NCBI GenBank assembly: GCA_002898215.1
Contig: BEIF01000001.1
Span: forward strand, 477,501 to 541,500
DNA length: 64,000 nt
Source: a bacterium HR29
GTDB lineage: Bacteria > Chloroflexota > Dehalococcoidia > Tepidiformales > Tepidiformaceae
Direction of reading: 5' to 3'
A program made the translations under genes and the position numbers. The notes beneath the pieces were generated by a model that did no database searches, was not told the DNA's origin, and was given only the letters and a program-made list of their open reading frames with translations. This document shows, piece after piece, positions 27,219 through 33,406 of the stretch. The first letter of the stretch is position 1. The number at the start of each line of letters is the position of its first letter.

Positions 27219-27929
27219 TCACAGCGGCCGTTTCCCTGGAACGCCGGGTCGGCGCGGATACCGATCCGGTGTGGGGCGCACCTTTCGGAACCGGGCCACG
27301 ACGATCGTTCCGCTGATCGTCGGGCGCATGGGCACCGCCCCTTCGTACTCGACGCCGAGCTCCGACATGGCGCGTTCGGCAGCCCGAAGCTCTTCGCGGA
27401 AGCTGGATCCCTTCGGGAGGATGACGGGAGCGCCGAGGGCGGCGAAGGGGGCCGTGTACTCCAGGGCTTCGCGCAGTGGTGCCACGGCCCGCGCCGTGAC
27501 CAGGTTGGCAGACTCCCGCAGGGGACCACGGCCCAGCGTCTCTGCCCGCTCGGGATGGACCGCGGCTCGCTCCAGCCCAAGGCCGGCGGCGATGGTGGCC
27601 AGCACGCGGGCGCGCTTCTGCAGGGGCTCGACGAGATGCACCTCCCACTCCGGGAACACGGCGGCGATGACGAGGCCCGGGAATCCGCCGCCCGAGCCCA
27701 CGTCGACGACCGGCGGGCCGCCGCCTGCGTCGAGGCTGATGCGCAGGATCTCGAGTGACTCGGCGAAGTGGCGCCGCACCATCTCCTCGGGTGGGACGGA
27801 CGTGGTGCGGACTTCGGCCGCCGCGAGCATCGCCGCGTGCGCGCGTAAGCGGGGGAGCCAGGCCTCCGGGTTGCCGATGGTGGAGAAGTGTGCCGCCAGC
27901 CACTCCCAGGTCGCGTGCCGCTCGTCCAC
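27219..27929 (-). CDS. rsmG: 16S rRNA (guanine-527-N7)-methyltransferase RsmG
   Basis: 236 residues. RsmG methylates G527 of 16S rRNA using SAM; its loss gives low-level streptomycin resistance. The SAM-binding motif VVDVGSGGGFPGL is near 73-85, followed by VHLVEPLQKRARVL and VTARAVAPL, both conserved in RsmG. GTG 27929 is chosen because GGGGGAGG lies 4 nt upstream and the protein then matches family length. That ribosome site is embedded in an inverted repeat. The gene diverges from the GreA-type gene across only 41 bp. Confidence 0.92.
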   Translation of the reverse strand: MDERHATWEWLAAHFSTIGNPEAWLPRLRAHAAMLAAAEVRTTSVPPEEMVRRHFAESLEILRISLDAGGGPPVVDVGSGGGFPGLVIAAVFPEWEVHLVEPLQKRARVLATIAAGLGLERAAVHPERAETLGRGPLRESANLVTARAVAPLREALEYTAPFAALGAPVILPKGSSFREELRAAERAMSELGVEYEGAVPMRPTISGTIVVARFRKVRPTPDRYPRRPGVPGKRPL

Positions 27930-27953: not shown

Positions 27954-27958
27954 GATGA

Positions 27959-27964
27959 TACGCT
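27959..27964 (+). promoter_or_regulatory. -10 box TACGCT of a leaderless promoter (GreA-type gene)
   Basis: TACGCT ends 6 nt before GTG 27971. The spacer/-35 region is occupied by the inverted repeat at 27934-27953. Confidence 0.5.
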
Positions 27965-27970
27965 GGTTTC

Positions 27971-28786
27971 GTGCCGGATTCCCAGCCGACGGTGCTCGAC
28001 CCCACGCTCGGAGAGGCGCTGGAGGAGTTCTTGGCATCCCTGAAGCCCCCACAGGCCCTCGCCTACGGGGGTTGGGTGCGAAAGTACGTGGAATTCGCCG
28101 GTGCCGACATGCGGGTGTCAGCGCTCACCGGCGCGAGGGTGGAGTCGTACGCTGCGTCGCAGCTCTCGCCGAGCGACCCGAACATCGAACAGCGCATCGA
28201 GGCCCTCAAGCGCTGGTTCCAGTTCCTGAAGAAGCGCGGTTACGCCTCGCAGAATTTCGGGGTGCACCTCCGCGTACGTGCCGCGGGGAAGAAAGCCACC
28301 GCCGGCCACCGGAGCCAAGGGGCGAAGGTGAAGCCGGTCGAGCTCACCGAGGCTGGTCTCGCCGCTCTCAAGGCCGAGCTGGCCGAGCTCGAGAGGCAGC
28401 GGGTCGAGCTGGTGAAGGCGGTGGCCCAGGCTCGCGAAGATAAGGACTTCCGCGAGAACGCACCACTCCACGCTGCTCGTGAGGCGCTGGCCTGGAACGA
28501 GCAGCGTCGCAAGGAGATCGAGGCCGTGCTTCGCGACGCGGTGGTCGTCGGGTCGGCCAACAACGGGCGGGCCGCGGTCGGCTCCACTGTCTCCATCGTG
28601 CGCCTCGACACGGGCGTCCGGGACCGGCTGACGCTCGTCTCGCCGCGGGAGGCCAACCCGGCGCAGAAGAAGATCTCCGTGGAGTCACCCGTGGGCCGGG
28701 CGCTCCTCGACCGTGCTCCGGGTGAGGAGGTCGTCGTGCAGACGCCCTCCGGCGAAGTTCACTTCCGCATCGAGGCAGTCGAGTAG
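27971..28786 (+). CDS. GreA-type transcription factor with N-terminal recombinase-like SAM domain
   Basis: 271 residues against about 158 for ordinary GreA. Residues 10-105 look like the core-binding (SAM-like) domain of tyrosine recombinases: GEALEEFLASL, WVRKYVEFAG, and a helix ending WFQFLKKRGY; no catalytic recombinase domain follows. Residues 121-190 are the GreA coiled coil with the acidic tip conserved as D159 and E162 in KDFRENA (E. coli D41 and E44). Residues 200-271 are the FKBP-like C-terminal domain (ISVESPVGRALL). It should stimulate RNA cleavage by backtracked RNA polymerase; the extra domain could bind DNA. Starts GTG 27971, leaderless type. Fusion is seen; its role is inference. 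Confidence 0.85.
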   Translation: MPDSQPTVLDPTLGEALEEFLASLKPPQALAYGGWVRKYVEFAGADMRVSALTGARVESYAASQLSPSDPNIEQRIEALKRWFQFLKKRGYASQNFGVHLRVRAAGKKATAGHRSQGAKVKPVELTEAGLAALKAELAELERQRVELVKAVAQAREDKDFRENAPLHAAREALAWNEQRRKEIEAVLRDAVVVGSANNGRAAVGSTVSIVRLDTGVRDRLTLVSPREANPAQKKISVESPVGRALLDRAPGEEVVVQTPSGEVHFRIEAVE

Positions 28787-28854: not shown

Positions 28855-29136
28855 ATGCTGGTGCGGGGCGAAGTGAAGTGTCTCCATTGCGGCTACGTGA
28901 GCGGTACCTGGGTCGGAGCTGCGGGAACGCCGCTGCGCCGGGCCGGTTTCACCCCGAGCCCCGGGGCGCCTGCCGAAGCCATTCCCGACCCCCTGCGCTG
29001 CCTCCGGTGCGGCGGTCCCGTCTACCTGGAATCGGCGACGCCGGTGCTCTCGTCGTCCCGGCTTCAGCGCATCAGGCAGCTTCGGGAGCAGCTCGACGCG
29101 CTCGACCTGCGTCGTAAGCGCCGGTCTGCCGCCTGA
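28855..29136 (+). CDS. Small zinc-ribbon protein
   Basis: 93 residues, ATG 28855 with GAGGAGGG upstream. Two CxxC pairs, CLHC (9-12) and CLRC (49-52), are 36 residues apart and should hold one zinc ion. A strand-rich core lies between, and the C-terminal third is a basic amphipathic helix (RLQRIRQLREQLDALDLRRKRR) that could bind nucleic acid or a partner. No named family is recognised. It follows the GreA-type gene by 68 nt on the same strand, so a transcription-related role is possible but unproven. Confidence 0.72.
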   Translation: MLVRGEVKCLHCGYVSGTWVGAAGTPLRRAGFTPSPGAPAEAIPDPLRCLRCGGPVYLESATPVLSSSRLQRIRQLREQLDALDLRRKRRSAA

Positions 29137-29678: not shown

Positions 29679-29912
29679 GTGATCCACCTCCCCTTGCCGG
29701 AAGAGCGCTCCGTGGCCCTCGCGCGCCGGTACGGCACGATTTTGGCGGCGGCCGGGGGTGCGCTCGCCCTCTTCCAGCTCGTCGGCCTCGCCCGCCGCAG
29801 TTACTGGGCCGTGGCGGTCCCCGTCGCAGCTGTCACGCTGGCCGGGGCGGGAGCGCTCGTGTGGATAGGGCGGCTCCTGATGACGACTCCCTACGAGCCG
29901 GCTGAGTTCTGA
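29679..29912 (+). CDS. Small two-span membrane protein
   Basis: 77 residues from GTG 29679 with GGAGGAG 5 nt upstream; the frame is open back to 29628, overlapping the cupredoxin stop, but that part lacks a ribosome site. Two hydrophobic helices (about 21-38 and 42-65) with a short loop containing RRSYW. No family recognised. Being just downstream of the cupredoxin lipoprotein, the two may be co-transcribed. The 3' end overlaps the convergent nuclease-helicase gene by 22 bp. Confidence 0.65.
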   Translation: MIHLPLPEERSVALARRYGTILAAAGGALALFQLVGLARRSYWAVAVPVAAVTLAGAGALVWIGRLLMTTPYEPAEF

Positions 29913-32900
29913 GCTTCGAGGCACTGAGCGCGCTCGTAGTAGCAGGCCAGCGCGTTCGCCAGCTCCATCTGTCGGATGCTCGTGCACGGCGGGTCGAGGA
30001 GCGCGGGTGAAGCAACCACGATTGCGAGGCACTTCGCCCGTGACGTGGCAACGTTCAACCGGTTGAGGCTGTAGAGGAACTCCATCCCCAGGGGCGCGTC
30101 CTCCTTCGAGCTGGAGGTCATCGAGTAGACGACCACCGGTGCCTCCTGCCCCTGGAACTTGTCCACCGTGCCGACGCGGAATGATTCGCCGAGCTTCTCC
30201 TTCAGCAGGCGAACCTGCAGGTTGTACGGGGCGATCACCAGGACGTCCTCGGGGCGAAGCGGCCGGCTCGTTCCGTCACGGTCGACCCAGCTTGCGCCGT
30301 CGCGTGTGAGATGGCAGCAGAGCTGGGCGATGGCCTTTGCCTCCTCTTCGCTGAGGACGTCGCACCCCTCGTGGCGGACGGGCACGAAGACGAGCCCAGC
30401 CTCCGGGAAACCCGGAACCTCGACACGCTGCCTCTCACACCCGGGCGCAGCCTTCAGGCGGCCGTCGTAGAAGAGCTCGGAGGTGAACTCGCAGATGGAG
30501 GGATGGAGTCGCCAGGTCTGTTCGAGGAAGAGGCCGCGCTCGGGAGGGATCGTGTCCTTGTCGCCGAGCAGGTGGGCCAGCGCGGAGCGGTCAGTCCCCG
30601 GCGGATGCGTAGCCAGGAGCGGCTGGTCGAGCTGCTGGGGGTCGCCCACGAGCACGACGCTCCGTGCCGCCATGGCGGCGACGAGCGCGTTCGCCAGCGA
30701 AAGCTGTCCCGCCTCGTCGATGAACAGCACGTCAACGGGGCAGAGATTCGGGCTCGCCCAGAACCACACGGTGCCGCCGGCTACGTGCACCTCACCGGTT
30801 TTCACGGCCTCGATCCCCTTCGAGCCCGCCAGATTCCGCCAGCCGTGACGCGGCTTGGTGCCGCCCAGGCGCTGCCCGATGGCGAGGCGGACCTTCCGGT
30901 TCCGTGCCTCTTCATCCACCCGCTCGAGGAGCGTCGTGATCACGCTGTGGCTGTTCGCGGTGACCCCGACCCGCTTCCCTCCGCGGGCCAGCTCGACGAT
31001 GAGCGTGGCGGCGAGCGTCGTCTTCCCCGAGCCAGGCGGTCCCTGAATGGCGAGGCAGCTCTCGTCGAGGAGCGGGACAAGCCGGAGGGCCGCGTCACGC
31101 GCGCTCTCGCCGGGCCCTACAAGCGGAGCCCCAGGGGGTTGGCCGCAGCGCGGCAGCGACCGCAGCAGCAGCTCGCGCGCCGCACGGTACCGTCCGGGGC
31201 CTTCGATGCCGCGTTCCGCGACGTGCTCGGCCAGTTCACGGAGCCTCGCCTCGATGGTCCCGGTGTCGTAGATCTCGAAGGGGACGAGCGCGCGAGGTGG
31301 CGAAACGTCGCCGTCCTTGGTCCTTCGGACGGTCACCACGTGCTCTGCCTCGTCGATCGCTTGGACGGTGCACTCTTCGAGCGTGTAAGGGTCGCGTGCC
31401 CTGTCGCCCGGCGAGAGTCGGTGCTCTTGGGGCGGGAAGCGGAATCGCCAGGAAGGCTTCCCCCGACTGTTCGGCACGGTTCCCAGGAACTCGAGGTCGC
31501 CGAGGGCCGTGCTGTCGAGGACGATCTCAGCGGGAGTCATCTCCCTGTAGGCGAAGACGCGCCACCAGGCGGCCCGCATCTCGCGCCGGTGCCAGGACAG
31601 CAAATGCCCGAGGATCCAGCGCGCCTGCTCCGCTTCGCTCCGTTCTCCTGGTGAGGCCGGGACCCCGTCCGTGAGGCGCCGGAAGAGGGCCGCCGTCTCG
31701 TCGAGCTCCTGCTCGGTCGCTTCGCTGGCATCAGGCCGTTTCGGTGCTGGTCGGGGAAGGCTCTCTCCCCTCTGCCTCTCCAGCTCCGCTCGACGCTCCT
31801 CGAGCCAATCGCGCAGGGCAGCGGCCGAGCGGCAGTCGTCCTTGTTGTACTCCTCGATCGTCTGTAGGAGGTCTCCGTTGGGCGTCTCCTCGCTGCCGAG
31901 TTCGAGCCAGCGCTCGAACGCTTCGATGCTGGCGCCCGCGTCCCTGAGCGTTGCCCGCCGCTGGAATCCGTAGAGCGGTTCGAGCTGCTTGATGGAGTAG
32001 CTCTCCACGGAGGCGCGAAGCCCCTGTCGTACGACGCGGTAGAGGTCCACAAACGCCTCGGCGCGAAGCAGCTCGTCCAGCTCACGCTCCCGGGTCCCGA
32101 AGCGAGCGGCGAGACGCTTGAGTGCCGCGGGCTCGTAGGCGCCGAAATGGTAGACGTGCATTCCCGTGGTGCCGTCCTCGCGCAGGGCCTTGCTGAAGCG
32201 GTCGTGGAGGAAGTCGATGGTTCTTTCGAACGCCTCCTGCTCGGCCTCACGGGTCACGCGGCCGTTCCCGTCGATGCTCCAGAAGCGGTGGTAGTTCTCG
32301 GCCTCCTGGTCCCCTCGTTCGAAGATGCCGAAGAGGTACTCGACGCCACCATCCAACGCGAAGGGGTCGCCCTCGATGTCGAAGAACAGGTCCGCGGGGC
32401 TTGGTTGGGGGAGAGCGGCCAACCCCTCCACGGCGAAGGTCCCGGCCTCGTCCTTGCGTGGCTCCAGGAGCTCGTACCGAAGTTGGCCGTCTCGTTCGGC
32501 GTCGACCTGCAGGCGGGCCTGCAGGTGGAGGCGGGAGTACGCCTCACGGGAGCGGGTGGGAATCGCGTTCTCAAGCCTCTCCCACTGCGTATCGGCGAAC
32601 TGGGTCCGTGTTGCGACCCCGGCCTCGGTGAGACGTCGGCGTTGGGGGCTGCCCATGCCCGCCACCAGGGAGAGGTGGTCGGCCTGGCGGCGAAGGTTGT
32701 CGCAGTGGAGGCGCCAGGCACACACCTCGCAGTGCTCGACGGGGTCCGGAGCTCCGTTCTGAGCCTCGAATTCCCCGTTGTCGAGCGCTGTTTCGAACCG
32801 CTTGCGGAGTCGGCGATACCAGGAGGCGTACCGCTTCACGGGGAACGAACGGACTTCGCGTCGGCTCCCGCCCAGCGCGAGGTGAACGGTTCCTCCCGAT

Positions 32901-33406
32901 ACGCCCTGAACCGTCGCGAGGAGGTCGTCGTAGAAGAGCACCTGCAGGAGGGCGCCCGCCTTCGCCTCGCGCGCCAGCTTCGTATCCCAGACTTCGTAAC
33001 ACCAGTCGCCGAAGGAGCTCTTCCGAGCGTCGCTGCGGATGAGGAAGTCGGCGTGGCCGCGGCGCCGACCGTCGAAGAAGGTGGCCTGGTAGATGACGTC
33101 GGCGCCCTCGCGCATCGCTTTCCGTGTGCATTCGGCGGCGAGCCGCAGACGTTCGGCCTTGTCTTCGACCGAGCCGTCGGGTTGGATTTTGACGACGCCC
33201 CTCCCCTCACTGCGCAGCGCTTCCAGGAACCGCTCTTCGTGCTGCTGGCCGCGTTGGACGAGGCGGTCCAGGGTAGGGTCGCGGAATTCGGGGCGCGGAA
33301 GGGTGCCCTTGGCTGCGGCGAGCTCGAGGCGGGGGAGCTGCGGGCAGAGGGCAAACCCCACCAGGTCACGGGCTGCGTAGACGAGTTTGCCGTCGAGCTC
33401 CTGCAC
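29891..33406 (-). CDS. TM0106-type RecB-like nuclease / DEDD exonuclease / SF1 helicase
   Basis: 1171 residues. Residues 1-250: RecB/Cas4-like nuclease with GHAD (D120), EVWDTK (D141, K143) and four cysteines (C21, C226, C229, C235) placed like a Cas4/AddB Fe-S cluster. Residues 335-530: RNase H-fold DEDDy exonuclease of the YprB type, with D343/E345 in FFDIEGDP, D454, and Y520/D524 in YNKDDC. Residues 770-1171: superfamily 1 helicase with GPPGSGKTT (789-797), DEAG (897-900), GDPQQL (921-926), VDKFQGQE and VATSRAK. GTG 33406 has AAAGGAG upstream. It looks like a DNA-repair or DNA-clearing machine; substrate and role are unknown. No adjacent defence genes. Confidence 0.88.
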   Translation of the reverse strand: MQELDGKLVYAARDLVGFALCPQLPRLELAAAKGTLPRPEFRDPTLDRLVQRGQQHEERFLEALRSEGRGVVKIQPDGSVEDKAERLRLAAECTRKAMREGADVIYQATFFDGRRRGHADFLIRSDARKSSFGDWCYEVWDTKLAREAKAGALLQVLFYDDLLATVQGVSGGTVHLALGGSRREVRSFPVKRYASWYRRLRKRFETALDNGEFEAQNGAPDPVEHCEVCAWRLHCDNLRRQADHLSLVAGMGSPQRRRLTEAGVATRTQFADTQWERLENAIPTRSREAYSRLHLQARLQVDAERDGQLRYELLEPRKDEAGTFAVEGLAALPQPSPADLFFDIEGDPFALDGGVEYLFGIFERGDQEAENYHRFWSIDGNGRVTREAEQEAFERTIDFLHDRFSKALREDGTTGMHVYHFGAYEPAALKRLAARFGTRERELDELLRAEAFVDLYRVVRQGLRASVESYSIKQLEPLYGFQRRATLRDAGASIEAFERWLELGSEETPNGDLLQTIEEYNKDDCRSAAALRDWLEERRAELERQRGESLPRPAPKRPDASEATEQELDETAALFRRLTDGVPASPGERSEAEQARWILGHLLSWHRREMRAAWWRVFAYREMTPAEIVLDSTALGDLEFLGTVPNSRGKPSWRFRFPPQEHRLSPGDRARDPYTLEECTVQAIDEAEHVVTVRRTKDGDVSPPRALVPFEIYDTGTIEARLRELAEHVAERGIEGPGRYRAARELLLRSLPRCGQPPGAPLVGPGESARDAALRLVPLLDESCLAIQGPPGSGKTTLAATLIVELARGGKRVGVTANSHSVITTLLERVDEEARNRKVRLAIGQRLGGTKPRHGWRNLAGSKGIEAVKTGEVHVAGGTVWFWASPNLCPVDVLFIDEAGQLSLANALVAAMAARSVVLVGDPQQLDQPLLATHPPGTDRSALAHLLGDKDTIPPERGLFLEQTWRLHPSICEFTSELFYDGRLKAAPGCERQRVEVPGFPEAGLVFVPVRHEGCDVLSEEEAKAIAQLCCHLTRDGASWVDRDGTSRPLRPEDVLVIAPYNLQVRLLKEKLGESFRVGTVDKFQGQEAPVVVYSMTSSSKEDAPLGMEFLYSLNRLNVATSRAKCLAIVVASPALLDPPCTSIRQMELANALACYYERAQCLEAQNSAGS

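Follow-up and report, generated by a model that had tools for sequence, protein, structure and literature searches.

A GreA-family protein with a tyrosine-recombinase-type core-binding domain in the Dehalococcoidia

Nearly all sampled genomes of the class Dehalococcoidia encode a GreA-family protein that carries an additional N-terminal domain of the type used by tyrosine recombinases to bind DNA. We describe this fusion from a 64,000-nt stretch of DNA of bacterium HR29 (referred to here as the window), together with its relatives. In our reading, GreA gained a recombinase-derived core-binding domain, became the main transcript cleavage factor of the class and may use the new domain as a DNA tether; we give this reading as a whole a probability of roughly 0.55. 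The features of the locus are listed in Table 1.

Table 1. Positions of the fused gene, its parts and its divergent neighbor in the window
Feature	Position	Strand	Residues	Basis or remark
rsmG/gidB (16S rRNA methyltransferase)	27219..27929	-		Divergent neighbor of the fused gene
Extended -10 element, TGA TACGCT	27956..27964	+		6 nt upstream of the GTG; implied leaderless start
Fused-protein coding sequence	27971..28786	+	271 aa	GTG start, stop included; open reading frame and orthologs sharing the architecture
Core-binding (SAM-like) domain, tyrosine-recombinase type	27995..28285	+	9-105	Profile, hhalign, AlphaFold, fold search
Helices within the core-binding domain			13-23, 26-43, 54-64, 72-88, 96-99	
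Flexible linker	28286..28336	+	106-122	pLDDT about 50-60
GreA coiled-coil domain	28337..28546	+	123-192	Pfam and structure match
Coiled-coil tip, D159-F-R-E162 (E. coli GreA D41, E44)	28445..28456	+	159-162	Alignment
GreA C-terminal FKBP-like domain	28559..28783	+	197-271	Pfam and structure match

Taken as a single sequence, residues 1 to 123 of the window protein had no match in Pfam, and identifying the N-domain required a family alignment. A profile made from the window sequence and 27 aligned relatives had as its top match in the PDB the N-terminal domain of a phage integrase (3nrw; E = 5e-5), and its weaker matches included true recombinases (for example, L292). Individual family members also matched the Pfam families Phage_int_SAM_4 (best E, 3.6e-4) and Phage_int_SAM_1. 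An hhalign comparison of the N-domain with Xer-type core-binding domains, taken from recombinases of related genomes, gave a probability of 97, an E value of 1.1e-10 and a score of 60; the controls scored at most 19.6 (60 column shuffles), 7.4 (reversed) and 10.9 (GreA part). On the strength of these controls, and of the recombinases among the weak profile matches, a chance resemblance was rejected.

Structure prediction led to the same family. An AlphaFold model of residues 1 to 113 (pLDDT, 83.5) matched 3nrw (Z, 12.6; 95 residues, 2.2 Å), lambda integrase (Z, 10.8) and XerD (Z, 10.3; 84 residues, 2.4 Å) in a fold search whose 28 top-ranked chains were all integrase or recombinase-family entries. 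The Foldseek ranking agreed, with no match reaching an E value of 0.001. The N-domain thus has the four-helix core-binding fold together with sequence homology to tyrosine recombinases, and the initial annotation, which had placed such a domain at residues 10 to 105 from the sequence of the window alone, is borne out to within about a residue (approximately 9 to 105). It had also read that no catalytic recombinase domain follows, and indeed the R-H-R-Y domain is absent: residues 106 to 271 consist of the linker and GreA, with no integrase match. Judged by sequence and model, the fused protein is a GreA-family member carrying a core-binding domain and not a recombinase.

The GreA module, described at the outset as complete, with acidic residues D159 and E162 and an FKBP-like domain, was confirmed by Pfam, alignment and structure match. 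Both Pfam families were found above cut-off, GreA_GreB_N (PF03449) at residues 124 to 192 (3.4e-14) and GreA_GreB (PF01272) at residues 197 to 271 (3.7e-23), and the NCBIfam GreA models matched below their cut-offs (122 bits versus 145). The GreA part (residues 123 to 271) superposes on E. coli GreA (1grj) with a Z score of 16.6 over 145 residues at 39% identity, and D159 and E162 fall opposite D41 and E44 in a gap-free alignment, two residues that in E. coli GreA engage the catalytic Mg and are required for cleavage (PMC7527559). In about 125 fusion sequences, this D..E tip is intact essentially throughout. The protein therefore shows what is expected of GreA and GreB, namely, an antiparallel coiled coil with an FKBP-like domain (in Pfam and the AF2 model) and the acidic pair at the tip. 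It retains the DxxE from which the tip of Gfh1 departs, and its domain content differs from that of the TPR-GreA/B-C-PIN proteins, in which a GreA C-terminal domain lies between TPR repeats and a PIN nuclease. The full-length AlphaFold model (pLDDT, 90.7; pTM, 0.54) consists of two well-formed parts with a low-confidence linker between them. We considered whether the N-domain might lack a match to the recombinase fold or be a degenerate GreA leader, and neither possibility refuted the assignment; the fold and the two-domain architecture are, in our estimation, practically certain.

The full-length start is marked by its promoter. Within the window's family, all 25 testable members have TGNTANNNT at the exact spacing of the -10 element, 6 nt upstream of the start codon (maximum in 500 shuffles, 1/25), and in none of the 25 is the full-length start preceded by a Shine-Dalgarno-like sequence. 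A conserved extended -10 element at fixed spacing, with no Shine-Dalgarno sequence, fixes the full-length start and implies, at the level of sequence, a leaderless mRNA that begins there.

A different product, an ordinary short GreA translated from an internal start near residue 120, might nevertheless be the functional one. V120 of the window protein is encoded by a GTG that follows an AAGG-like stretch, and many family members have an ATG at 'MTAEG'. A further hint comes from Dehalococcoides mccartyi CBDB1, whose GreA (cbdbA743) has been detected, with strong acetylation of K17 in stationary phase (PMC7918482). In three closed genomes of 1.4 to 1.5 Mb, which we take to be Dehalococcoides, the full-length protein has a residue other than lysine at position 17, whereas a numbering that starts at the internal Met of MTASGYKKLEDELSTLK yields K17. 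As the acetylation site seems to fit the internal numbering and not the full-length one, the published CBDB1 gene model probably omits the N-domain, though the upstream frame is open and conserved. However, an internal start with a Shine-Dalgarno-like sequence is present in only 12 of 82 sequences, at differing positions, and the leaderless promoter at the full-length start is conserved without exception (25/25). A conserved internal start is thus unsupported, and we regard a short functional product as quite improbable.

Across the Chloroflexota, the architecture proved to be near-universal in the class, with about 236 of 246 sampled genomes carrying it (best E value, 1e-50 or better; our count), including nearly all genomes of the window's family, and it is also present in other families of the phylum (sequences inspected directly). 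Named records of the fusion belong to the Dehalococcoidia, Tepidiforma among them; one record is labeled Actinomycetes and looks mis-binned. In the tree, the GreA domains of fused proteins group together (SH-aLRT, 87). Among matches in phages, plasmids and viral contigs, no fused form was found, and the best plasmid matches covered less than 50% of the query, in the GreA part only; carriage as mobile-element cargo was rejected on these grounds. In the most divergent fused GreAs (L278, L280 and L281, from other families of the phylum), helix D is followed by a recombinase-like NP or DP turn (NNPATGLRI, SDPMKNVRLPR) that is closer to genuine integrases than are the copies found in the class. Three class members (G199, G229 and G490), with genomes 93 to 95% complete, have no match to the GreA C-terminal domain; they may lack Gre factors, or the assemblies may be incomplete.

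The N-domain is 20 to 54% identical to the window sequence across alignment A4 and is conserved less between families than the GreA part. This lower conservation is what one would expect if the domain were a degenerate leftover, a neutral leader without function. Against such a leader, almost all genomes of the class retain the domain in frame, its fold is predicted with high confidence, and the conserved promoter sets the start of transcription and translation exactly at the full-length start codon. Furthermore, dN/dS in the N-domain is mostly 0.05 to 0.3 in close pairs, well below 1 and similar to that of the GreA part, so by this sequence measure the domain is under purifying selection. We consider a functionless leader very improbable.

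The initial annotation had raised the question of whether a normal GreA accompanies the fusion. The window genome has its own short GreA, which lies outside the window (G000:C1:718454-718912; loci L001 and L218) and whose tip reads GTSQTDAEY against GDLKENAEY in E. coli, aligned without gaps; both D41 and E44 are replaced by Thr. This protein is probably a non-cleaving secondary-channel factor. We extended the comparison in a survey that read 105 fetched loci plus others. A properly spaced D41/E44 pair was found in 0 of 49 short GreAs from fusion-bearing genomes: the tip is lost in 37 and reads D..D in 11, and the DxxE aligned in the last one (L122) falls short by one residue. Among genomes of the phylum that lack the fusion, DxxE is kept in 38 of 43 (copies examined), with D..D or E..E in the copies examined from the remaining 5. 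Fisher's test gives P = 3e-19 for the association between fusion and tip loss, a value that is not a phylogenetic test; fusion and tip loss each changed few times, and independent contrasts yielded one independent pair on supported branches (six on the full tree), too few to decide on the association.

Elsewhere in the class, the short gene is missing altogether. No short GreA was found in 16 closed fusion-bearing genomes: in 13 of them the fusion is the sole GreA-family match, and in 3 further ones it is accompanied only by a match inside a very large frame. A short GreA beside the fusion is therefore either tip degenerate (49/49) or absent (16 closed genomes). Because the short form has lost its tip or is absent, the fusion keeps its own and D41 and E44 are needed for cleavage, the fusion is very likely the main cleavage-competent Gre factor of the class and often the only one. 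The remaining short GreAs have probably taken on a new, non-cleaving role, to judge from their tips.

How the N-domain contributes is less certain. Lys or Arg is frequent at positions 38 (84%), 75 (84%), 80 (98%), 87 (80%), 88 (89%), 101 (96%), 103 (89%) and 104 (84%), and the mean net charge of the domain is about +4.5. All of these positions except 38 cluster on helix D and the tail that follows it, the regions that contact DNA in recombinases (PMC3537659). From sequence and model, the odds lean slightly toward DNA binding by the N-domain. The same basic residues speak against a role as a protein-protein module that docks on RNA polymerase or another factor and owes its recombinase fold merely to ancestry. 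Such docking would nevertheless agree with three observations. Recombinase core-binding domains bind DNA through helices B and D, but the fusions do not conserve the Tyr-Arg pair that is common in helix B of Xer proteins (AYRNDL), a DNA-contact motif; positions 32 and 33 are mostly S/Q, which speaks against a simple inheritance of DNA recognition. Moreover, 2 of 45 N-domains are strongly acidic (net charge, -7; L107 and L112), and N95, the residue that varies least, lies at the recombinase 'NP' turn and is probably structural and not a DNA contact. We consider protein docking rather unlikely.

It had further been proposed that a DNA-tethered cleavage factor would target polymerases at collisions or special sites. 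The core-binding domains of Xer proteins and phage integrases are generally known to help recognize sites (PMC3537659), and the N-domain could likewise recognize sequences such as dif-like sites or promoters and bring GreA to polymerases stalled there. However, the fusion is near-universal and short GreA is absent (sixteen closed genomes) or tip degenerate, so the fused protein must do general cleavage work, serving all genes in fusion-only genomes and in those whose short GreA has lost its tip. In addition, the catalytic domain that would complete a specific site contact is absent, and a search for genetic partners yielded none that is class-wide. We thus disfavor targeting of collisions or special sites, and sequence-specific recruitment seems improbable. 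With moderate confidence, we favor weak nonspecific DNA tethering over protein docking and place site-specific targeting last of the three, since the fused protein must serve the whole genome. Nonspecific tethering as the role of the N-domain, as opposed to any other role, has in itself a little less than an even chance.

In the mechanism that we propose, a GreA first acquired, at its N terminus, a core-binding domain derived from tyrosine recombinases and later displaced the ordinary GreA as the cleavage factor. By homology to GreA, the GreA module would dock at the rim of the secondary channel of RNA polymerase and insert its coiled coil, placing D159 and E162 at the catalytic Mg, where the backtracked RNA would be cut. 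In GreA, the N terminus leaves the coiled coil at its base, a point that lies outside the secondary channel. The N-domain would accordingly sit outside the channel, and a flexible linker of about 17 residues could let it reach nearby DNA or the polymerase surface. There it may grip duplex DNA near the same elongation complex, with little sequence specificity, and such a grip would raise the local concentration of the cleavage factor. Held on the template near RNA polymerase by a recombinase-derived domain, the factor would make the rescue of backtracked complexes template bound. The ordinary short GreA would meanwhile have lost its catalytic tip and become a putative non-cleaving secondary-channel factor, or its gene would have been lost.

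Ordinarily, Gre factors are free in solution and act from there. Tentatively, and with somewhat less than even odds, we suggest that a freely diffusing GreA has been replaced throughout the class by a DNA-tethered cleavage factor, with the ancestral GreA now a non-cleaving channel factor. If the N-domain does bind DNA, the class offers a natural experiment in template-tethered cleavage, with testable effects on backtracking, fidelity and replication conflicts.

The fusion shares the complete GreA module and tip acids with E. coli GreA (1grj), which lacks the extra N-terminal domain of about 105 residues and the linker. The likeness to tyrosine-recombinase core-binding domains (3nrw, XerD 1a0p and lambda Int 1z1b) extends in fold and sequence over the whole N-domain, but the fusion has no catalytic domain, is joined to GreA and does not conserve the helix-B Tyr-Arg motif. 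ALOG domains (PMC3537659) provide a precedent for the reuse of a recombinase N-terminal DNA-binding domain in a transcription regulator, although they are plant proteins with a zinc-ribbon insert and no Gre module. Thermus Gfh1 and archaeal TFS4 (PMC5715097) are precedents for non-cleaving paralogs of cleavage factors and resemble the short GreAs described here; the latter have lost the tip with differing tip sequences, whereas the fusion keeps it. Gre fusions as such are already known (PMC8195603), and the NCBIfam models PRK06330 and PRK14720 represent further ones. Among them, the TPR-GreA/B-C-PIN conflict systems (PMC8195603) are likewise multidomain fusions that use the GreA C-terminal domain, but they contain only that Gre domain, have other partners and are predicted to act in defense. 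In three genomes of our set, GreA C-terminal-domain matches lie inside open frames of 1,300 to 1,600 aa (G105:C1:1647718-1647933, G456:C1:1730885-1731091 and G277:C1:1076496-1076708; the latter two score below the family cut-off), and these large frames are possibly relatives of such systems. In the literature searched, with subscription papers outside its scope, we found neither a GreA with a core-binding domain described nor any mention that the short GreA of the class has lost its tip.

The class thus seems reliant throughout on a GreA with a recombinase-type domain, and this probably extends to Dehalococcoides, the organohalide respirers employed in bioremediation, while the protein annotated as the normal GreA lacks the catalytic residues. 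For cleavage activity, "GreA" annotations in the class hence lead to the wrong gene, and the N-domain is probably missing from at least one published gene model.

We also examined the neighboring genes. The divergent rsmG lies about 40 nt from the fused gene; all family loci of sufficient length share this arrangement, which suggests that the two genes have paired promoters. Together with a gene for a Yip1-domain protein, rsmG is found divergently upstream throughout the family and also in a few other families; no operon partner of the fused gene is conserved class-wide. On the other side, 70 nt downstream of the fused gene, window positions 28855 to 29136 encode a small protein with CxxC pairs (zinc-ribbon-like) and no Pfam match, which recurs at this position in 14 further loci. 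The small genes on this side converge with a minus-strand gene (window positions 29891 to 33406) for a 1,171-aa protein with RNase H-like and AAA_12/AAA_11 helicase domains.
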